Assembly (NCBI GenBank): GCA_021173225.1
Contig: JAJOLK010000014.1
Location: 1 to 64,000 of the forward strand
Length of the DNA: 64,000 nucleotides
From: Phycisphaerales bacterium PN19_bin_20
Lineage (GTDB): Bacteria > Planctomycetota > Phycisphaerae > Phycisphaerales > UBA1924
Direction of reading: 5' to 3'
Below the pieces are notes generated by a model. That model was not told the DNA's origin. It ran no database searches and saw only the letters and a list, made by a program, of their open reading frames with translations. Shown here piece by piece: positions 35,135 through 44,800 of the stretch (position 1 is the stretch's first letter; each line of letters starts with the position of its first letter). Made by a program: the position numbers and the translations under genes.

Positions 35135-35680
35135 TCAGGGTTCCTCCGCGATCTGCCACTCCAGCTCGTCGAGGTCGGCGTTGACGGGGCGGCCCAGATG
35201 GCGGAGCATGTTCATGCACTGGGCGCGGTGGTGCATGCCGTGGTTGGTCACGTGGATGACGGCGGCGGCGACGGTGAAGGTCTCGGGCGGGTAGTCGGCG
35301 ATGGTCCAGGTTCGTGTGGTGTTGAGGGTTCCGTGGTCGCGGAGCTGAGCGACGAGGTGGGCGAAGTCGGGGGCGATGTCTTGAAGCTGGGCGCTGAACT
35401 CAGCAGCGGTGAAGCGCTTGGCTGGCGCGGGGTCTGTGTGCGAGGTCCGGCCGTCGAGGCGCGGGCGCAGGGGGCGCTCGCCGATGCGGTCTGCCCAGCG
35501 GTGCATGGCGCCGATGATGTGGGCGATGGTGTCGTGCAGTGAGCCGGGGCCGATGGGGAACTGCTGGTGGAACTGCGCCTCGGTCAGCGGGCGGCAGCGG
35601 TCGATGATCTGGGCGGTGGCCCAGCGATCATGGCCCAGCAGGATGTCGAAGGCATCTGTTGAGAGGGGCTTGGTGGGCAT
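35135..35680 (-). CDS. DinB-like four-helix metalloprotein (first of three)
   Basis: About 181 residues from ATG 35680 (MPTKPLSTDAFDILLGHDRWA). DinB fold marks: LLGHDRWATAQII (first His), SLHDTIAHIIGAMHRW (second His) and NHGMHHRAQCMNML (third His region). The metal-binding histidine triad appears intact. Relatives include bacillithiol/mycothiol S-transferases and unknown thiol transferases. An in-frame ATG at 35785 gives a basic leader that is less plausible. Confidence 0.85.
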   Translation of the reverse strand: MPTKPLSTDAFDILLGHDRWATAQIIDRCRPLTEAQFHQQFPIGPGSLHDTIAHIIGAMHRWADRIGERPLRPRLDGRTSHTDPAPAKRFTAAEFSAQLQDIAPDFAHLVAQLRDHGTLNTTRTWTIADYPPETFTVAAAVIHVTNHGMHHRAQCMNMLRHLGRPVNADLDELEWQIAEEP

Positions 35681-35965
35681 GGCGTAGTTTATCCTGATGG
35701 CGGTGACGGTCGCGCAGAGGGCGAGGCTGCGTCGTGCGTGTGATGTGCTGTTGCTTGGTAAAGCGCGATGCTCGTGCGGCATCAAGTTCGGGCGGCACAG
35801 AGGTCTTCCGAGGCTCGGCCGATCTGGGTGAAGGCGTAATTGAACCCGTTAGGCTCGAGACGGCGCGAGGTGATACCGCGGCCGTAAGGCGACAGCTCTG
35901 GATCGGTCCGCGGCACCAGTGGCGCACCGACGCGACCGCCCGCGCGGGGGGCGGGTGCGCAGGCG
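35681..35965 (+). other. Gene-free gap with a T-box-like motif
   Basis: About 285 bp between the first DinB gene start and the DUF1572 gene end. On the plus strand, AGGTGATACCGCGG (35868-35881) resembles the T-box antiterminator core, and CCGCGGCC (876-883 of 35k) can pair with GGTCCGCGG at 35905-35913 with one bulge. No synthetase gene follows on this strand, so a functional T-box is doubtful. Short ORFs in the region have no recognisable content. Confidence 0.25.
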
Positions 35966-36508
35966 CTAGCGGCTGGCGGTTTGTTGGCGCACGTGCTGGT
36001 TGAAGGCGTCGGAACCGCCGCGGGGGATGGTCAGGGTGGTCCAGGGCGTGGCGGACTGTGCGGCAAGGACTCGCGCGGTTTGGACGATCTGCCCGACGTG
36101 GTAGCTGGTGTGAGACAGCGACCGCGTGAGGGCCAGGGTGAGGGTGTGCGGCTGGTTGCGGATCGTGAGCACGCGGGGCAAGTCGGCGTCGGTGAGCGCG
36201 GCGAGCTGAGCCTCGAGCGCGTTCCAGCCAACGTCCCAGCAGGCGATAAGGGCTTGATGGTCGGCGAAGTCATCGACAAACTCGGTATCGCGGAGTCGCC
36301 AGGGCTTCTCGCCGTCGGTGGTCAGCGCGTCGGTCCAGCGCGAGCGAAGGTTGCCGCCGACGTGCTTCATGACGACGGCGACGGAGTTGACCTCGGGGTT
36401 CAGCGGCGTGCGGAGCTGGGCCCAGGTGAGGTGGGCGGCGGCCCTTTGGGCATAAGCGCGGTAGCGGGCGAACTCGTGCTCAAAGGCGCGGAGGGTTTCG
36501 CGCTGCAT
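35966..36508 (-). CDS. DUF1572/DinB-like protein (second of three)
   Basis: About 180 residues from ATG 36508. DUF1572 marks: AVVMKHVGGNLRSRWTDALT, WDVGWNALEAQL and SHTSYHVGQIVQTAR; the histidines at MKH, SH and YH fit the DinB metal site. Function unknown. It lies about 285 bp upstream of the first DinB gene on the same strand, and its start is about 90 bp from the divergent isoaspartyl peptidase gene. Confidence 0.82.
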   Translation of the reverse strand: MQRETLRAFEHEFARYRAYAQRAAAHLTWAQLRTPLNPEVNSVAVVMKHVGGNLRSRWTDALTTDGEKPWRLRDTEFVDDFADHQALIACWDVGWNALEAQLAALTDADLPRVLTIRNQPHTLTLALTRSLSHTSYHVGQIVQTARVLAAQSATPWTTLTIPRGGSDAFNQHVRQQTASR

Positions 36509-36595
36509 GGTCGCTCCGCGTGAGGGAACAGGGGCAGGAGGGTGGGGAAATCATCGGGCGCAAAGGCGGGGGAGCGAGACTGTACACTTATGGGT

Positions 36596-37696
36596 ATGAG
36601 CGCAACAACCCTGACGAAGGCGGCGTGGTGCCTGGCCACTTTCCTGCTGGTGACGCTGGCGTCAACGCTGGTGATGGGAGGTTGCGCGGGCGGTGGTGGT
36701 GGAGCTGGTACTGGTGTGGGGTCGGGCGCGGGGTCGGGGTCGGGCGTTGGTGGCGTGCGGCGCGATGGTGCCGCGCTGTGGGCGGTGGCGATTCACGGCG
36801 GGGCGGGGACGCTGGACCGCGGCGCGCCGGCAGAGCAGATTAAGGCGTACCGCGCCGCGCTGGAGGGTGCGCTGGCAGAGGCGACGGCGCGGCTTGAGCG
36901 CGGCGAGGCGGCGGTTGATGTCGCGCAGGCGGTGGTGATGAGACTGGAGGATGACGCGAAGTTCAACGCGGGCGTTGGTGCTGCGTTTACGGCCGAGGGC
37001 GGGCACGAGCTTGACGCGTCGATCATGGAGGGCCACACGCTGCGGTGCGGGGCGGTGGCGGGGGTGACGACGGTGAGGAGCCCGATCGGTCTGGCGCGCC
37101 TGGTGATGGATCGGACGCGGCATGTGCTGCTGGCGGGGGCGGGGGCTGAGAGGTTTGCGGATGGGATGGGCGTGGCGCGGGTGCGCAATGCGCACTTTGA
37201 CACGCCGCGGCGACGCGAGATGTGGGAGCAGTGGAAGCGCGAGCAGGCGGGAGCAACTTCGGCGGCGATAATGGGCACTCCTGATGTCCGCTTCGGTACC
37301 GTTGGCTGCGTGGTACTGGACGTGCGCGGGCACCTGGCCAGCGCGACGAGCACCGGTGGCCTGACGGGCAAGCGCTGGGGGCGTGTGGGCGACTCGCCGG
37401 TGATTGGCGCGGGGACGTATGCCGACGCGCGGGTTGCGGTGAGCTGCACCGGCACGGGCGAGGAGTTCATCCGTCACGGGGTGGCGCGGGCGCTGGCCTC
37501 GCGCGTTGAGCTTGCGGGCGAGAGCGTAGATGAAGCGGCGCGGCATCTTGTGTTCAAGGTGCTCAAGCCCGACGACGGCGGGTTGATCGCGGTGGACGCG
37601 GGCGGGAGCATCAGCACGCCGTACAACAGCGAGGGGATGTACCGCGCGGGGGCGAGTAGCAGGGGCGTGCGGTTTGTGAGCATTTGGCAGGAGTGA
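36596..37696 (+). CDS. Lipoprotein isoaspartyl peptidase/L-asparaginase (Ntn hydrolase)
   Basis: About 366 residues from ATG 36596. Signal peptide and lipobox end in LVMGGC. The Ntn-hydrolase chain follows: WAVAIHGGAGTLDRG, FNAGVGAAFTAEGGHELDASIM, and the catalytic Thr (T235) in RFGTVGCVVLD, followed by ATSTGGLTGKRWGRVGDSPVIGAG. Such enzymes split themselves before the Thr and cleave beta-aspartyl dipeptides or asparagine. The next gene, a cyanophycinase, starts 5 bp after its stop, so the pair probably degrades cyanophycin. A Gly-rich linker follows the lipobox. Confidence 0.9.
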   Translation: MSATTLTKAAWCLATFLLVTLASTLVMGGCAGGGGGAGTGVGSGAGSGSGVGGVRRDGAALWAVAIHGGAGTLDRGAPAEQIKAYRAALEGALAEATARLERGEAAVDVAQAVVMRLEDDAKFNAGVGAAFTAEGGHELDASIMEGHTLRCGAVAGVTTVRSPIGLARLVMDRTRHVLLAGAGAERFADGMGVARVRNAHFDTPRRREMWEQWKREQAGATSAAIMGTPDVRFGTVGCVVLDVRGHLASATSTGGLTGKRWGRVGDSPVIGAGTYADARVAVSCTGTGEEFIRHGVARALASRVELAGESVDEAARHLVFKVLKPDDGGLIAVDAGGSISTPYNSEGMYRAGASSRGVRFVSIWQE

Positions 37697-37701
37697 GCGG
37701 C

Positions 37702-39063
37702 ATGAACATTGCATGGCGAAGGGTGCGTGGTGAAATCTTGGCTGTGGTGGCGAGCGCGCGGCTTGCTGCTGTGCGGCTTGCTGCTGTCCGGCTTGCTGCT
37801 GTAAGGCTTGCAGCCGTGATGGTGGGCGCGACGTTGGGGGTCGCACTCTTGGGCGCCTGCGCGCCCGGAGCGGGCGGTGGGCGCGTCGTGCTGATCGGCG
37901 GCGGGCTTGAGGACGACAATGCGGCGGTGCTCGGCACGTGCATATTGGCTGAGGGGACGGCGCGGGCGCTGGTGGTGCCGTGGGCGAGTGGGGATCAGGC
38001 CGGCGCGGGCGCGAGCACGAGCAGGCGGCTGCAATCGCACGCGCCGGGTGCGCGGGTGAGTGTGGCGGGCCCTGATTTACAGGGCGAAGCGGCCAATCAA
38101 TTGGCTGCCGAGCTGGCGCAGCTTGAGTCGGGCGATCTGGTGTACTTTACCGGCGGCGATCAGAAGCGGATCACGCAGCGGCTGCTGGCAGAGGATGGCG
38201 GCGGGAGAGGTGTGCTCGAGGCGCTGCGCGCGGCGCACGCGAAGCGCGGGGTAACCATCGGCGGGACCAGCGCCGGCGCGGCGTGCATGTCAAGCCCGAT
38301 GTTCTTGGGTGGGCAGAGCGATGCGGCGCTGGGCGTTGTGCGGGCCCGGACAGACCGCAACCCAGCGGCGGCGGATGACGATGATGAGCCGGTGGTGGTC
38401 GGGCCGCGGCTGGGCCCGGGCCTGGGGCTGGTGCAGGCACCGGGCGGGGTCATTGTTGACACGCACTTTCTTGAGCGCGGGCGGATCGGGCGGTTGATCG
38501 CGGCGCTTGAGGCCTCGGGCACGCGCTGGGGTGTGGGGCTCAATGAGAACCGCGCGGTGCTGTGGGAGGGCGCGGGAGCGGATGCGCTGATGACGGCCAT
38601 TGGAGATCAGGCCGCGGTGCTGGTGGATGCTTCGAGCGTGACGCGACGCGGGCTGTCGCGGTTTGGCGCGCGGGTGAGCGTGCTTAGTGATGGTGACACA
38701 TGGACGGCGGCGCGGGGCGTTGTGACCTCAGCGCCTGCGTGGGACGCGAGCACGGCCTTGGTGCTGGCACCGGCGGGGGCGGGGGCGGGGACGGGTTCAC
38801 GCGAGTCAGCAGATCGCGCGACGGGCGCGGGTGGCGCGGGTGCTCGTCGGCCTGCCGGTGGGCCATGGGCGCGCAACGGGCTGCGGAGACTGCTGGCGGA
38901 GCTCGCGGCCGAGCCACGCGCGACGCACGGCGTGCAGGGGACGCACTTTCGGCTGGTGGTTCGCGCTGACGAGCGGACGCGGTTTGCCGGCGATGCGGCG
39001 CGGCCCGGTTCGCTGCGGGTGATTGACGCGGTGATCGACATCGAGGCGACGGGCGAGCGCTGA
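37702..39063 (+). CDS. Lipoprotein cyanophycinase-like peptidase (S51)
   Basis: About 453 residues from ATG 37702, with a GGAG site at 37690-37693 inside the upstream gene's end. The signal peptide carries four RLAAV repeats and ends in the lipobox ALLGAC. S51 marks: VVLIGGGLEDDNAAV, LVYFTGGDQKRITQ, and nucleophile Ser190 in GGTSAGAACMS. The family (CphB) cleaves cyanophycin to beta-Asp-Arg. It is longer than cytoplasmic CphB (about 275) by the leader and a Gly/Ala/Arg-rich insertion near residues 355-390. It pairs with the upstream isoaspartyl peptidase. Confidence 0.87.
   Translation: MNIAWRRVRGEILAVVASARLAAVRLAAVRLAAVRLAAVMVGATLGVALLGACAPGAGGGRVVLIGGGLEDDNAAVLGTCILAEGTARALVVPWASGDQAGAGASTSRRLQSHAPGARVSVAGPDLQGEAANQLAAELAQLESGDLVYFTGGDQKRITQRLLAEDGGGRGVLEALRAAHAKRGVTIGGTSAGAACMSSPMFLGGQSDAALGVVRARTDRNPAAADDDDEPVVVGPRLGPGLGLVQAPGGVIVDTHFLERGRIGRLIAALEASGTRWGVGLNENRAVLWEGAGADALMTAIGDQAAVLVDASSVTRRGLSRFGARVSVLSDGDTWTAARGVVTSAPAWDASTALVLAPAGAGAGTGSRESADRATGAGGAGARRPAGGPWARNGLRRLLAELAAEPRATHGVQGTHFRLVVRADERTRFAGDAARPGSLRVIDAVIDIEATGER
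37759..37818 (+). repeat. 15-bp in-frame tandem repeat in the cyanophycinase signal peptide
   Basis: Four copies of CGGCTTGCTGCTGTG type, encoding RLAAV each time, placed before the hydrophobic core of the signal peptide. Confidence 0.9.
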
Positions 39064-39110: not shown

Positions 39111-40238
39111 TCAGCGGCCGGTGGCCTCGCGCAGTTTGGCGTCGGTCTGCTCTGTGCCCTCGGGGTCGGGGGCGGTGTCGTCACGCAGGGTGTGTTCAAT
39201 GAACGCGGCGATCGGTGCCTGATAGCTGGGGAAATCAAGGAAGGCGCCGACGTGCTCGCCGCCGGGCAGCAGCAGGATCTGGGCGCGCCCGCCGACGGCC
39301 CAGTTACTTTTGGCGAGCTGGTCGCTGTGCCAGGCGGGGATGATGCTGTCGTTGCGGGCGTGCACGAGCAGCAGCGGGGTGCGGCGGAGCTGCGCGGCGT
39401 GCGCGGTGGGGTTCAGTGCGTCTACGCCGCCGACCAGGAAGCCCAGCGGCGCGAGCACCGGGCCCAGGTTGTTGCTTACGGCGATGCGCCAGTTGCTGAA
39501 GGGTGCCATCGCGACTACGGCGCTGACGGGCCGGCCTTGCCGCTCAGCGCGGGCGGCGACGGCGAGGGCCATCGCCCCGCCCATGCTGTGCCCAGCGACC
39601 ACGATGCGGCTTGGGTCAACGTCAGGGCGTGAGCGTAGATAGTCAAGCGCGGCGGAGGCGTCTTCGATGATGCCCTGGATGGTCGAGGCGTTGTTGCGGT
39701 CACTGGCACCGAAGCCGCGGTAGTCGAACTGAAAGACGCGATAGCCGGCGGCGCGGTAGAGGCGTGCCATGGGTGAGGCGTTGTTATCGAACACGCCGTG
39801 GCAGAAGAGCACGACCGCGCGGTCGGGGCCTTTGGTTAAGCGAGCGCGGTTGCGAAGCGCGCGGTCGAGAAGATCGGGGTTGATCGACTCAACCGGGTAC
39901 ATGCGGCCTTCAAGCATGACGCGCGGCGCGCCGGAGGCGACGGCCGCGGGCGGGGCGACGAGTGTCGAGTCCGGGTTGGCGTCGGCCTCGCGCGATGGCG
40001 TGATGGGGCCGCCGGCGAAGCGGACGACTTCGACACCCTGCGGCGTAGTCAGCGGCGGGCCCTTGACGGGGATGAAACGCGCAGCGAGGCAGCCGGGCAG
40101 AACGACCGCGGCCAGAACAAGGGCGGTGAGCACGAGCGGGGCGAGCCGCGGACGAAGCGGCCCAGCGCTCGGCGCGGGATCGCGGTGAGGGCAGTGGCGC
40201 GGGCAGGAGGGTTGCTGTGCGGCGGGCGAGTTAATCAC
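39111..40238 (-). CDS. Alpha/beta-hydrolase lipoprotein
   Basis: About 375 residues from GTG 40238, overlapping the AlkD-like stop by 4 bp. Lipobox AVVLPGC after a long leader. The hydrolase shows VVLFCHGVFDNN (oxyanion region), the nucleophile Ser in VAGHSMGGAMA, Asp in VHARNDSIIP and His in LLPGGEHVGAF. It acts on esters or amides outside the cytoplasm; substrate unknown. It may be co-transcribed with the AlkD-like gene. Confidence 0.85.
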   Translation of the reverse strand: MINSPAAQQPSCPRHCPHRDPAPSAGPLRPRLAPLVLTALVLAAVVLPGCLAARFIPVKGPPLTTPQGVEVVRFAGGPITPSREADANPDSTLVAPPAAVASGAPRVMLEGRMYPVESINPDLLDRALRNRARLTKGPDRAVVLFCHGVFDNNASPMARLYRAAGYRVFQFDYRGFGASDRNNASTIQGIIEDASAALDYLRSRPDVDPSRIVVAGHSMGGAMALAVAARAERQGRPVSAVVAMAPFSNWRIAVSNNLGPVLAPLGFLVGGVDALNPTAHAAQLRRTPLLLVHARNDSIIPAWHSDQLAKSNWAVGGRAQILLLPGGEHVGAFLDFPSYQAPIAAFIEHTLRDDTAPDPEGTEQTDAKLREATGR

Positions 40239-41170
40239 GCACGGGCCTTGAGCGCGTTGCGCCGTGGTTGGGCCGCCGGGGTCGCGGCGCGGTTGCCAGC
40301 GGTGGATTTGGGCTTGGAGGTAGGCTTGGGCTTCAAGGTGGGCTTGGTCAGTGTGCTGGGATTGATCTTGGCGCTGGGTTTGGTCTTGGCGCTGGGTTTG
40401 GGATTGTCGCTGGGCTTAGCTTTGGGCTTGGCTTTAGGCGAGGGGTCGCGCTTTACGCTGCGTCGCGAGCCGTGATCAGCACGGGGCGCGGTGCTCGGTT
40501 CGGTGTTGGGTTCGGTGCTCGATTCAGTGCTGGGATGTGAGCCGGGGCCGCGCAGTTCGATCATGATGTCAAGGCGGTCGCAGAGCTCGGCTACTTCGCG
40601 TGCGCAGACCGGTAGTTGCTGGCCGATGAAGACCAGCAGCGGGATCATGCCCTCGCGGACGGGCTCTTGCTCGTTGGCGAAGCGGTCCTCGACCTTGCGG
40701 AGCAGGGCGCGTGCGTCTTCAACATCAACGCGGCCTTCGAGCACCAGCCACGCCAGGCACTGCCAGCCCGCGCCGCGCTCGTGCTCGGCCCGAGAGGTCA
40801 GCCAGCGGTGGGCGCGTTCGACGGCGTGGGGCGAGCCGGCGGCGAAGCGTGTGAAGCGGACGAGCAGGTCGCCGTCGTTGCACTGTGCGCACCAGCGGTC
40901 AAGGTCGCTGGGGGCCATGGCCGTGGGGTCGGCGATGAGCAGCGCGAGCAAGCGGGGGGAGAGGGCCGTGGCGTCCCAGAGCTTCAGGGCGAGGGCGTGG
41001 TCAACGTTGATCTTGCGCGCGAGCTGATTGACGAGGCGGAGGGCGGCCTGCTCTGAGCCGGCCGCCGCGAGCGAGGCGACGATCGCGCCGGCGCCAGTCA
41101 CGCTGGTGGTCACGGGCTGAGCGGTGCGCGTGGTCTTGGGCGCGGCGGGGGCCTTGCGTGTCGGCGGCAT
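40235..41170 (-). CDS. AlkD-like DNA alkylation repair protein with a Lys/Pro tail
   Basis: About 311 residues from ATG 41170. The middle (residues 30-190) is a HEAT-like helical repeat of the AlkD family: HALALKLWDATALSPRLLAL, APSDLDRWCAQCNDGDLLVR and RAHRWLTSRAEHERGAGWQC. AlkD removes alkylated bases. The last 85 residues are a basic Lys/Pro/Ser repeat (units like KPSAKTKPSAK), likely disordered and DNA-binding. The family match is by eye and catalytic residues are not certain. Confidence 0.65.
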   Translation of the reverse strand: MPPTRKAPAAPKTTRTAQPVTTSVTGAGAIVASLAAAGSEQAALRLVNQLARKINVDHALALKLWDATALSPRLLALLIADPTAMAPSDLDRWCAQCNDGDLLVRFTRFAAGSPHAVERAHRWLTSRAEHERGAGWQCLAWLVLEGRVDVEDARALLRKVEDRFANEQEPVREGMIPLLVFIGQQLPVCAREVAELCDRLDIMIELRGPGSHPSTESSTEPNTEPSTAPRADHGSRRSVKRDPSPKAKPKAKPSDNPKPSAKTKPSAKINPSTLTKPTLKPKPTSKPKSTAGNRAATPAAQPRRNALKARA

Positions 41171-41238: not shown

Positions 41239-41787
41239 TTAGGCGAAGACCGACTTGAAGCTCAGGGCCCTTCGCATGTCGGCGATCTGCCCGGTGTGGA
41301 AGCCGTTGTGGAAGACCATCCGCGCAATCAGGGCCCAGAGCGGGAACTGGGCCTGGCCCCAGGGCACGACCTCGTCGAGGCGGGCGTCGGGGACGGCGGC
41401 GGCGGCGGCGCTCAGACGGTCGCAAGCGGAGCTAAAAATCTCGGTGCAGCGCTCGAGTTTGGGGAAGCGGTCGTGGCGTTTTTCGGGGCGGCTGCCGAAG
41501 ACGATCGCTTCGGTATCGAAGTAGCCCTTCTCGCGCGAGCCGCCGAAGCCGTCGGCGGTAATGAAGTCTTTGGTGGGCAGGGGCTGCGCGTCGAGCATGG
41601 CGGCGACGCGGTGGATCGTGAAGGCGAGGTGCCCAAGCTGCCAAGCGAGGTGGTTAGGCAGGTCGGGGGTCTGGCGGACGTGCGTGACGTCATTGAACCC
41701 GGCGAGGTAACGAACGACCAGGGCCTTATTGGTCTCGAGGATGGCCGCCAGAAGCTCGCCGCGGGTGGTGGGGCTGGTGGTCTGCAT
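41239..41787 (-). CDS. DinB-like protein (third of three)
   Basis: About 182 residues from ATG 41787 (MQTTSPTTRGELLAAILETN). His-rich helices HLAWQLGHLAFTIHR and MVFHNGFHTGQIADMRRAL fit the DinB metal site. It is possibly a thiol transferase of unknown substrate. A 183-nt longer start at 41970 runs into carB and is unlikely. Confidence 0.85.
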   Translation of the reverse strand: MQTTSPTTRGELLAAILETNKALVVRYLAGFNDVTHVRQTPDLPNHLAWQLGHLAFTIHRVAAMLDAQPLPTKDFITADGFGGSREKGYFDTEAIVFGSRPEKRHDRFPKLERCTEIFSSACDRLSAAAAAVPDARLDEVVPWGQAQFPLWALIARMVFHNGFHTGQIADMRRALSFKSVFA

Positions 41788-41869
41788 GAGCAGATGGTAA
41801 CAAGGCTCGGGGGCAAGCTGCGCGGCGTCTCGCGCCAGCTTGCGGCGATGGATCGATAGCGGCGCTCGC

Positions 41870-44800
41870 TCAGGTCTTAAGCGGCGCACCGCGCGCGACG
41901 GTGCGGACCTGCGGGACGGGCGTGGCGAGGTGCGGGTGATAGTCCTGCAGGGCCGCGACGCCCCAGTCACCAGCGCGGACGGCGGCGATTGCCTTGACGG
42001 TCGCGGCGGCGCCGGTCATGGTCGTGATCATCGGCACGCCCAGGCGCACCGCGGCGGCGCGGATGCGGCCCTCGTCGGTCTGCCAGCCCGTGCGCGTGGG
42101 GGTGTTGATGATGAGTTGGATTTGCCCGTTGCTCATAAGGTCAAGCACGTTGGGGCGCACGGCGTCGGCGATCTTGGGCAGCAGGAAGGTGCCGTAGCCC
42201 GCGTCGGCCAGGAACTTGCCGGTGCCCGGGCTGGTGTAGATGGCAAAGCCCATCTCCATGAGCTCGCGGACCATCGGGATGGCGGAGGGGCGGTCTTCAA
42301 CGCGGACCGATACGAAGACCGCGCCCTTGGTTGGCATGTTCATGCCCGCGCCCATCTGGGCCTTAGCGAAGGCCACGGCCAGGCTGCGGTCGATGCCCAT
42401 GACCTCGCCGGTGCTTCGCATCTCGGGGCCGAGGACGACGTCAACACCCGGGAACTTGGCGAAAGGGAAGACCGATTCTTTGACCGCAAAGAAACCCTGC
42501 GGGACCTGCTCGGTGGTGCCGAGCTCCGCCAGGCTTGCGCCCATCATGACCTTGGCGGCGACGCGGGCCCACGGGACGCCTGTGGCCTTGCCAACAAACG
42601 GCACGGTGCGGCTGGCGCGGGGGTTGACCTCCAGGATGTAGACCTTGGAGTTCTTGACCGCGAACTGGACGTTCATGAGCCCGCGGACGCGCAGGTGCCG
42701 CGCAAGCAGGCGACCGATGCGTTCGATCTCCTGTCGGGTCGCGTGGTCGAGGGCGTAGGGCGGGATGGTGCAGGCGCTGTCGCCGCTGTGGATGCCGGCC
42801 TGCTCGATGTGCTCCAGGACGCCGGCGACCAGCGCGGTGCGGGTGCCCTGGGCGGGGTCGTTGACGGCGCGCGAGGGGTCAAAGTCAGCGACGATGTCGC
42901 AGTCAACCTCGGTGGCGTCGCCCAAGAAGCGGTCGATGAGCACCGGGGCGTCGTCCATCTCGCTAATGCGCACGGCGCTGGTCATATAGCTGACCAGCGC
43001 GGCCTGGTCCGGGCATACCTCCATCCCGCGCCCGCCCAGCACGTAGCTGGGGCGGACCAGCACCGGGTAGCCGATGCTGCTGGCGATATCTACGGCCTGC
43101 TGCAGCGTCCGGGCCGTGCCGCTGGGCGGCTTGGCCAGGCCCAGCTCGGTCAGCAGCTCGTCGAAGCGTTTGCGGTCTTCGGCCAGGTCGATCGAGTCAA
43201 CACTTGTGCCGATGATCGGCGCGCCGGCGGCCTGCAGCCCGTGGGCGAGGTTCAGCGGCGTCTGCCCGCCGAACTGAACAACGCACCCGAGCACGCGGCC
43301 GGTGGTCCGCGCGGGGGCACCGTTGGCGGCGGGCACCAGCGGCGCAACGTTCAGGCGCTCGACCACGTTGAGCACGTCTTCGAGCGTCAGCGGCTCAAAG
43401 AACAGCAAGTCGCTGGTGTCGTAGTCGGTGCTGACAGTCTCGGGGTTCGAGTTAATCATCACGCTCTCGAGGCCCAGCTCTCGCGCGGCCATGGCGGCGT
43501 GCACGCAGCAGTAGTCAAACTCAATGCCCTGGCCGATACGGTTGGGCCCGCCGCCGAGGATGATGACCTTCTGCTTGTCGCTGAGGCGGACCTCGTCGTC
43601 ACGCTGCGGCACGCCGGCGACGGTGAACGGCGTCTCGTACGTGCTGTAGTAGTAGGGCGTAACGGCGGCGAACTCGGCCGCGCAGGTATCGACCAGCTTG
43701 TAGACCGGCTCGATGCCCAGGGCCTTGCGCCGCGCGCGGACCTGCAGGATCGTCGCGGGCTTGATGTCACCGAGGTAGACCATCGCGAGCTGCGCATCGC
43801 TGTAGCCCAGGCTCTTGGCCTTGGCGAAGACCTCGGCGGGGACACCATCGAGGGTGGCGTACGAGAGCAGCACGTCCTCAAAGCTCACAAGGCGCTGGAT
43901 CTGGTCGAGGAAGAAGCGGTCGATGCGCGTGAGGGTGTAAACCTCTTCAACGCTCATGCCCGACTTGAAGGCGTAGCGCACGTAGTAGAGGCGGCCCTGG
44001 CTGGGTACCGCCAGCTTGCGGCGGAGCTTGTCGGGGGCGATGGGCCACTCGATCTTCTGCCCGTCGGCCGTGCGCTGCTCGGCGCCGGCGCGCTGGGCGG
44101 CGAGCCACTTGTCGTTGCGGTCAAGCCCCAGGCCGAAGCGCTTGACCTCCATGCTGCGGATGGCCTTTTGCAGGCTCTCTGCCAGCGTGCGCCCGATGGC
44201 CATGGCCTCGCCGACGCTCTTCATCTGCGTTGTGAGGGTCTCGTCGGCCTCGGGGAACTTCTCAAAGGTCCAGCGCGGGATCTTGATGACCACGTAGTCA
44301 ATCGCCGGCTCAAAGCAGGCGCTGGTGGTGCCGGTGATGTCGTTTCGCAGCTCATCTAGGCTGTACCCCACGGCGAGCTTGGCGGCGACCTTGGCGATGG
44401 GGAACCCGGTGGCCTTGCTGGCCAGGGCCGATGAACGCGACACGCGCGGGTTCATCTCGACTACGACCATCTCGAAGGGGATCGACCCATCGGGCCTTGG
44501 CAGCGGGCTGGGGTTGACGGCAAACTGCACGTTGCTGCCGCCGGTCTCAACGCCCACGGCCCGCATGATCGCCAGCGCCGCGTCGCGCATGGCCTGGTAC
44601 TCGCGGTCAGTAAGGGTCTGGATCGGCGCAACGGTGATCGAGTCGCCCGTGTGGACGCCCATGGGATCGAGGTTCTCAATCCCGCAGACGATGATGCAGT
44701 TGTCCTTCTTGTCGCGGACGACCTCGAGCTCAAACTCCTTCCACCCGATGACGCTCTGGTCAAGCTGGATCTGCCCGATCATGCTGGCCCGCAGCCCGCG

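Follow-up and report, generated by a model that had tools for sequence, protein, structure and literature searches.

We analyzed a 64,000-nucleotide stretch of DNA (the window; positions 1 to 64,000 of contig JAJOLK010000014.1) from Phycisphaerales bacterium PN19_bin_20, an uncultured planctomycete, in which two adjoining genes on the + strand encode a predicted exported IaaA-type isoaspartyl peptidase and, downstream of it, a predicted exported CphE-like cyanophycinase. Cyanophycin is a nitrogen-rich cyanobacterial polymer that serves as a nitrogen store, and its use by other bacteria is, to our knowledge, known from few isolates. The first gene (36590..37696; IaaA-type isoaspartyl peptidase or plant-type asparaginase precursor, 368 aa) has two possible start codons in frame, ATG 36596 and an ATG two codons upstream at 36590, and stops at 37694-37696. 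The second (37702..39063; cyanophycinase precursor of peptidase family S51, 453 aa) runs from ATG 37702 to the stop at 39061-39063 and thus begins 5 bp after the IaaA stop. Reading of the open reading frames (ORFs) bore out a preliminary description of this DNA in which both genes, the 5-bp gap and two lipoboxes had been claimed: MGGC in IaaA and LGAC in the cyanophycinase, with Cys32 and Cys53 as the respective cysteines. Below, G numbers denote genomes and L numbers loci (the window locus is L198), and families are labeled by genome family, f1 being the family of the window itself, f2 its sister family, and f6 and f22 further families.

The IaaA protein matched Asparaginase_2 (PF01112) with 331.7 bits against a Pfam cut-off of 27, and its closest solved relatives were a beta-aspartyl-peptidase (E 2e-70) and an L-asparaginase precursor (E 9e-69). 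The NCBIfam equivalog for beta-aspartyl-peptidase, NF007589, gave 256.6 bits with a cut-off of 567, and the paired IaaA of L157 as well as two fusion proteins described below scored likewise far under it (258 to 282 bits). Thr237 (codon 37298..37300), the predicted nucleophile, is equivalent to the first residue of the beta chains in the solved relatives; by analogy with its family, the protein would cleave itself into two chains and leave this residue at the N-terminus of the beta subunit. Also present are Thr255, Arg265, Asp268, Thr287 and Gly288, which we take to be active-site residues, having placed them by the EcAIII sites and by alignment to the solved relatives. E. coli EcAIII, a bacterial IaaA among the nearest solved relatives, shares the domain and the Thr nucleophile, and relative to it the window enzyme adds a lipoprotein signal and about 30 extra residues before the domain. 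The predicted signal (36590..36682) comprises 31 residues ahead of Cys32, counted from 36590.

Peptidase_S51 (PF03575) was detected in the second protein at 31.5 bits, above the Pfam cut-off of 23.9. The report on CphE gives Ser171, His224 and Glu251 as its catalytic residues and Gln136, Asp222, Arg228, Arg230 and Arg233 as its pocket, with Thr223 in place of Gln173 of CphB (PMC3235067). Alignment to these reported residues, as distinct from the whole CphE sequence, placed nine out of nine in the window protein, namely Ser190, His255 and Glu282 of the catalytic set and Gln154, Asp253, Thr254, Arg259, Arg261 and Arg264 of the pocket, Thr254 being the CphE-type Thr where CphB has Gln. Ser190 (codon 38269..38271, in a GTSAG motif), the predicted nucleophile, corresponds to CphE Ser171, aligned with the GTSAG serine of a solved cyanophycinase and was invariant across 14 aligned sequences. 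The predicted catalytic His and arginine pocket, Asp253-Thr254-His255 with Arg259, Arg261 and Arg264, are encoded at 38458..38493, and Glu282 (38545..38547) lies 27 residues past the His, the same spacing as in CphE. An AlphaFold2 model of the protein (mean predicted local distance difference test score, 82.5; low confidence at residues 347-382) superposed on the solved cyanophycinases 7uqw, 3en0 and 7uqv with Z of 28.6, 28.5 and 28.3, respectively, and a root mean square deviation (rmsd) of 2.0 to 2.3 over 246 to 250 residues, the match to 7uqw_B (rmsd 2.1, 249 residues) suggesting a cyanophycinase fold. The next structural matches were an actinobacterial peptidase (Z 19.6) and dipeptidase E (Z at most 18.8), which left the cyanophycinases ahead by about 9 Z. 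The structural alignments cover residues 58-344; the window protein has, besides an inserted loop, a C-terminal extension (residues 345-453; 38734..39060) past the segment that can be aligned to solved cyanophycinases.

A hydrophobic stretch and the lipobox LGAC form the predicted lipoprotein signal of the cyanophycinase (37702..37857). With 52 residues ahead of Cys53 it is unusually long, owing to a 15-bp tandem repeat of 3.6 copies (37758-37811) that encodes LAAVR repeats; the start codon is therefore uncertain, and an in-frame GTG within the repeat could be the true one. This repeat stretch was nearly all gap in an alignment of 13 relatives.

The draft genome to which the window belongs (3.10 Mb, 59 contigs) contained a single match to the cyanophycinase. 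The lack of cphA, the cyanophycin synthetase gene, noted earlier for the window could be extended to the whole draft, in which a search found none at cut-off, with the proviso that the genome is 90.86% complete and cphA could sit in the missing part. Together with 12 cyanophycinase-bearing relatives, 0 of 13 genomes had cphA over the cut-off, and the same search was positive in 1 of 14 control genomes. At E 1e-20 the cphA model yielded one partial match in 12 of the 13 (none in G035), confined to model positions 453-852, the Mur-ligase half; that of the window genome is MurE by Pfam. Relaxing the search to E 0.001 added, in this genome, six weak matches to the ATP-grasp part (23 to 28 bits; two of them in the window's large carB-like ORF) and one 18-bit match beside MurE. 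The cytoplasmic enzyme forms alongside cphA that the preliminary description had named as evidence to the contrary were likewise not encountered, the only IaaA in the genome at E 1e-10 being the exported copy.

We then read the export signals at 20 loci with an exported IaaA (18 separate pairs and 2 fusions). The counts rest on judgment by eye, since a scripted lipobox finder missed some cases, including the window cyanophycinase. A lipobox was present in 17 of the 20 IaaAs (that of L087 is partly lost at a contig start), and L163, L164 and L114 had a hydrophobic signal with no standard lipobox; among the 18 separate cyanophycinases, 16 carried a lipobox and L161 and L114 a plain signal. Export-type signals were thus kept on both partners in the paired relatives read. 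Only one locus, L114 from Pedobacter cryoconitis, lay outside Planctomycetota, and there TonB-receptor and SusD-type genes are followed by an exported IaaA and cyanophycinase.

The pair recurred mostly in Phycisphaerales, with IaaA first and export-type signals on both proteins. At E 0.001 the window cyanophycinase was matched in 14 of 61 genomes (its own and 60 relatives). Within f1, 11 of 37 genomes (the window's included) had such a match, and all 11 carried IaaA at E 6e-78 or better, as the upstream neighbor in nine (with a gap of more than 0.5 kb in G018) and on a different contig in G021 and G033; a single f1 genome, G006, had a high-scoring IaaA and no cyanophycinase match. The pairing in f1 is not due to chance. 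We also used a profile built from 14 sequences to search 397 genomes drawn from across the class (S51 at E 1e-20, IaaA at E 1e-50); 25 of them had S51, 13 had IaaA and nine had both, and in eight of these nine the genes were adjacent or fused. IaaA occurred alone, with no S51, in G276, G040, G050 and G349. A quick tree of 64 cyanophycinases (rows hand-picked, 33 with no partner seen, drawn from 80 of at least 573 confirmed relatives) did not support the idea that the exported pair arose once: the label needs 12 changes on it, at least five of them forced by starred branches, and the inside and outside states of the dipeptidase need at least five changes. As a separate observation, L025 and L109:1-853 encode another S51-like protein, which is divergent and has a YYLTG motif behind a signal-like start, with a cyanophycinase locus nearby in the genome.

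Two genera of the sister family f2 carry the two predicted enzymes in one protein with an export-type start. A single ORF of 753 aa in G352 (L163:4276-6537) comprises IaaA at residues 58-369 and cyanophycinase at 394-662, and one of 699 aa in G409 (L164:4650-6749) comprises them at 35-345 and 351-628. Both proteins start with an export-type signal, and their halves match the respective NCBIfam models, under the cut-offs. A third genome, G434, gave a 656-residue match (residues 29-684 of the 699-residue query) within one stop-free frame of 800 codons, bringing the fusions to 3 of the 181 f2 genomes searched; G429 and G441 have adjacent separate genes, the IaaA with an export-type signal. All five fetched f2 IaaAs that adjoin or are fused to a cyanophycinase had export-type N-termini (best 12-residue hydropathy, 1.9 to 3.1), and 15 other fetched IaaA loci (L180-L194), with no cyanophycinase in the stretch seen, had no convincing signal (-1.0 to 1.7), the test being crude and the separation of 1.7 from 1.9 small. 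A lipobox-like PLGC flagged by script in L187 lies upstream of the likely start, and the count leaves out G050, G534, G499 and G539 (4 of the 24 f2 genomes with matches).

A different layout was seen where the IaaA has no signal. Aurantiacibacter, Qipengyuania and Caulobacter have genes for a TonB receptor and a carrier of the YfcC/DcuC type upstream of those for an exported cyanophycinase and an IaaA that lacks a signal; on a Rhodobacteraceae contig the carrier is truncated by the contig end. Carriers of this type were present at 4 of 4 signal-less IaaA loci and at 0 of the 20 exported-IaaA loci (local DNA was searched for 16 of them, the entire genome for the window, L011, L012 and L020), a contrast with a nominal p of 9e-5, uncorrected for kinship. 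No YfcC/DcuC match was obtained in the window genome at E 1e-10, and the six scanned neighbors of the pair, which by its dipeptidase gene beside a cyanophycinase gene resembles a cyanophycin utilization locus, did not include the transporter that such a cluster also holds. Genome-wide, YfcC above 300 bits was found in the cyanophycinase genomes of f6 (4/4; adjacent to the cyanophycinase in G195 and G235, a few kb off in G049 and on another contig in G057) and not in those of f1 (0/14), f2 (0/2) or f22 (0/1), G008 having a weak 48-bit match on another contig. Among 27 genomes with no cyanophycinase match, none exceeded 48 bits (f6, 0/3; three weak f1 matches at 43 to 47 bits). The f6 contrast is small, but it is independent of the proteobacterial one.

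The carrier also accompanies other dipeptidases. In Planctomycetes bacterium Pla163 and Neobacillus drentensis it occurs with IadA, which scored 306.8 bits (below) and 562.6 bits (above), respectively, against the TIGR01975 cut-off of 331.25. At L104 a TonB receptor, the carrier and a cyanophycinase were present with no dipeptidase recognized. A metallopeptidase resembling M42 or M20, with no evident signal, lies near an exported cyanophycinase and the carrier at L168:2951-4306, L109:2361-3815, L169:4858-6153 and L046:595-1755 (the last on the opposite strand, about 2 kb off), and no IaaA or IadA was seen at these four loci. We know of no role of an M42-like metallopeptidase as a cyanophycin dipeptidase; the gene is a candidate for a new beta-Asp-Arg dipeptidase and offers a testable one for the dipeptidase that is missing there.

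On these grounds we reasoned that the window pair is probably (at a probability of about 0.72) an operon-like unit that scavenges cyanophycin from other cells by two extracytoplasmic hydrolytic steps; the substrate, the activities, co-transcription, the membrane and its face, and the uptake route are what we infer in it. The lipid-anchored cyanophycinase would cut the polymer backbone to beta-Asp-Arg, and the lipid-anchored IaaA, having matured itself into two chains, would split this dipeptide into Asp and Arg. The free amino acids would enter the cell by general carriers, and hence no dedicated dipeptide importer would be needed. The claim in the preliminary description that the pair serves scavenging and not the cell's own stores is in this respect supported, as far as sequences can tell, by the lack of cphA over cut-off, the export of the sole IaaA, the CphE residue set and the conserved signals. 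It is less new than was implied, since exported cyanophycinases in the absence of cphA, and their clustering with IaaA, have already been published (PMC8528874, PMC10206079).

Several results weigh against this interpretation. Of 392 genomes drawn phylum-wide, 41 matched the fused query at E 1e-60, and at 30 loci fetched from them a cyanophycinase lay within about 1.5 kb of the IaaA at only four (L195, the window, L201 on the opposite strand, and L205). A hydrophobic N-terminus (hydropathy of at least 1.9) was found all the same in 28 of the 29 IaaAs other than that of the window, L222 being the exception. Exported IaaA with no adjacent cyanophycinase is common in this draw, and the exported enzyme therefore has a wider role in Planctomycetota; export as a consequence of partnership with a cyanophycinase fails as a general rule and was kept for the fetched f2 loci only. 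Conversely, 16 of the 25 class-wide S51 genomes had no IaaA at E 1e-50. They include 4 of 11 in f1 (a full-length S51 in G372; weaker or partial ones in G005, G020 and G412), four f6 genomes, the full-length G290 (f22) and more distant matches, and neither a high-scoring IaaA nor a strong YfcC was found in G372 or G290. The 0 of 20 versus 4 of 4 carrier contrast does not represent 24 independent events, because the tree shows the four signal-less loci to be closely related. Moreover, IaaA enzymes are described as promiscuous and of broad specificity (PMC10206079), and the window cyanophycinase reached 115.9 bits with the cyanophycinase equivalog TIGR02069, 11 bits short of its cut-off of 126.6, for which reason we class it as CphE-like and not as an equivalog.

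The broad specificity of IaaA and its widespread export with no cyanophycinase alongside are what would be expected if the exported enzyme had a general part in scavenging, taking up isoaspartyl dipeptides and asparagine left by aged protein outside the cell, and if the S51 enzyme supplied it from mixed sources, cyanophycin being a minor or accidental substrate. We consider this unlikely in view of the strong co-occurrence with cyanophycinase in f1, the fusion in f2, where only those of the 20 fetched copies that have a partner showed export-type starts, and the intact arginine pocket of S51. Somewhat more doubtful still is the idea that the S51 enzyme is a related exported peptidase acting on some other beta-linked or aspartyl peptide. 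The TIGR02069 score, the inserted loop and the C-terminal extension would fit it, and the cut-off was missed as well by both fusions (116.1 and 113.9 bits) and, among seven other separate cyanophycinases scanned, by L157 (120.1) and L171 (126.0). The remaining five (L158 at 134.9, L167, L110, L114 at 157.8, and L169) passed, so that two of three separate paired relatives (L158 and L114, not L157) are above it, and the window protein retains all nine CphE residues in a modeled fold closest to the cyanophycinases.

If the N-terminal stretches were not working signals, the dipeptide would be imported and split inside, as the layout with TonB receptor, YfcC, exported cyanophycinase and signal-less IaaA in some Alphaproteobacteria would have it. 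This is highly improbable for the window, given that the paired relatives repeatedly show hydrophobic signals, in most cases with a lipobox cysteine, and that its genome gave no carrier match at E 1e-10. An internal cyanophycin store, made by the cell and recycled by the pair, was rejected because cphA was nowhere over the cut-off in the 13 genomes; the incomplete assembly leaves some room for it, and the export-type signals on both enzymes speak further against it, making it scarcely credible.

Scavenging outside the cytoplasm by the pair can be set against the carrier-linked loci, and we read the two layouts as two designs, digestion wholly outside or cutting outside followed by import of the dipeptide. 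Planctomycetota may have a distinct all-outside way of using cyanophycin, in which the polymer is fully degraded to free amino acids by a lipid-anchored two-enzyme set and, in one family, by a single bifunctional exported enzyme. It would mirror an import design of exported cyanophycinase, YfcC and a cytoplasmic dipeptidase, the last being IaaA, IadA or, in certain Phycisphaerales and Sumerlaeota, the signal-less M42-like metallopeptidase; we see the chances of this broader picture as evenly balanced. Were it true, neighbors would gain free arginine and aspartate that leak from digestion outside, and import would keep the dipeptide private, and gene layout would therefore predict sharing or selfish behavior. 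The fused protein would by itself, as one enzyme, convert cyanophycin to arginine and aspartate.

It is already known that exported cyanophycinases can serve to scavenge cyanophycin and that cyanophycinase and IaaA genes cluster in the absence of cphA; what the sequences appear to add is the recurrent planctomycete all-outside layout, the natural fusion, its reciprocal relation to the YfcC importer and, for the import layout, a new candidate dipeptidase. CphE of Pseudomonas alcaligenes DIP1 and P. anguilliseptica BI is likewise of S51 type, with an export signal and the same Ser/His/Glu and pocket Gln/Asp/Thr/Arg/Arg/Arg (PMC3235067); it has a cleaved Sec signal, whereas the window enzyme has a predicted lipid anchor and an adjoining IaaA gene. 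Among cphA1-less genomes with cyanophycinase and IaaA, the two were clustered in 30 of 32 (PMC10206079), which resembles the window in placing cyanophycinase beside IaaA with no cphA1; the accessible portion of that paper mentions neither an exported dipeptidase nor a fusion of cyanophycinase with IaaA. Acidobacteriota were argued to use external cyanophycin on the grounds of Sec signals and a lack of synthetase genes (PMC8528874). There, Ca. Sulfomarinibacter has a Sec-type cyanophycinase, no cyanophycin synthetase and the same inference of scavenging, but the available text reports one isoaspartyl dipeptidase in one metagenome-assembled genome and no adjacent exported pair or fusion. A TonB receptor lies close to the cyanophycinase gene in Citromicrobium (PMC3400609), and the genome of a Pirellulaceae isolate indicates a cyanophycinase (PMC13190842). 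The accessible parts of PMC12661447, PMC7564069 and PMC12590107 contain nothing on exported pairs of this kind or on natural fusions, and neither was found in the literature searched, which covered few subscription journals.

The six scanned neighbors of the pair encode ThiC, three DinB-type proteins, an alpha/beta hydrolase and a protein with a weak DNA_alkylation match. The three DinB-superfamily proteins lie within 7 kb around the pair, at 35135-36508 and 41239-41970. The protein with the DNA_alkylation match (40235-41170; 19.3 bits, below the cut-off of 21) has a tail rich in Lys, Ala and Pro, encoded over short tandem repeats (40308-40439) that are mostly of 18 bp. Elsewhere in the window, between 24001 and 36000, the guanine-cytosine skew flips sharply from about -0.26 to +0.23 near 28 kb.

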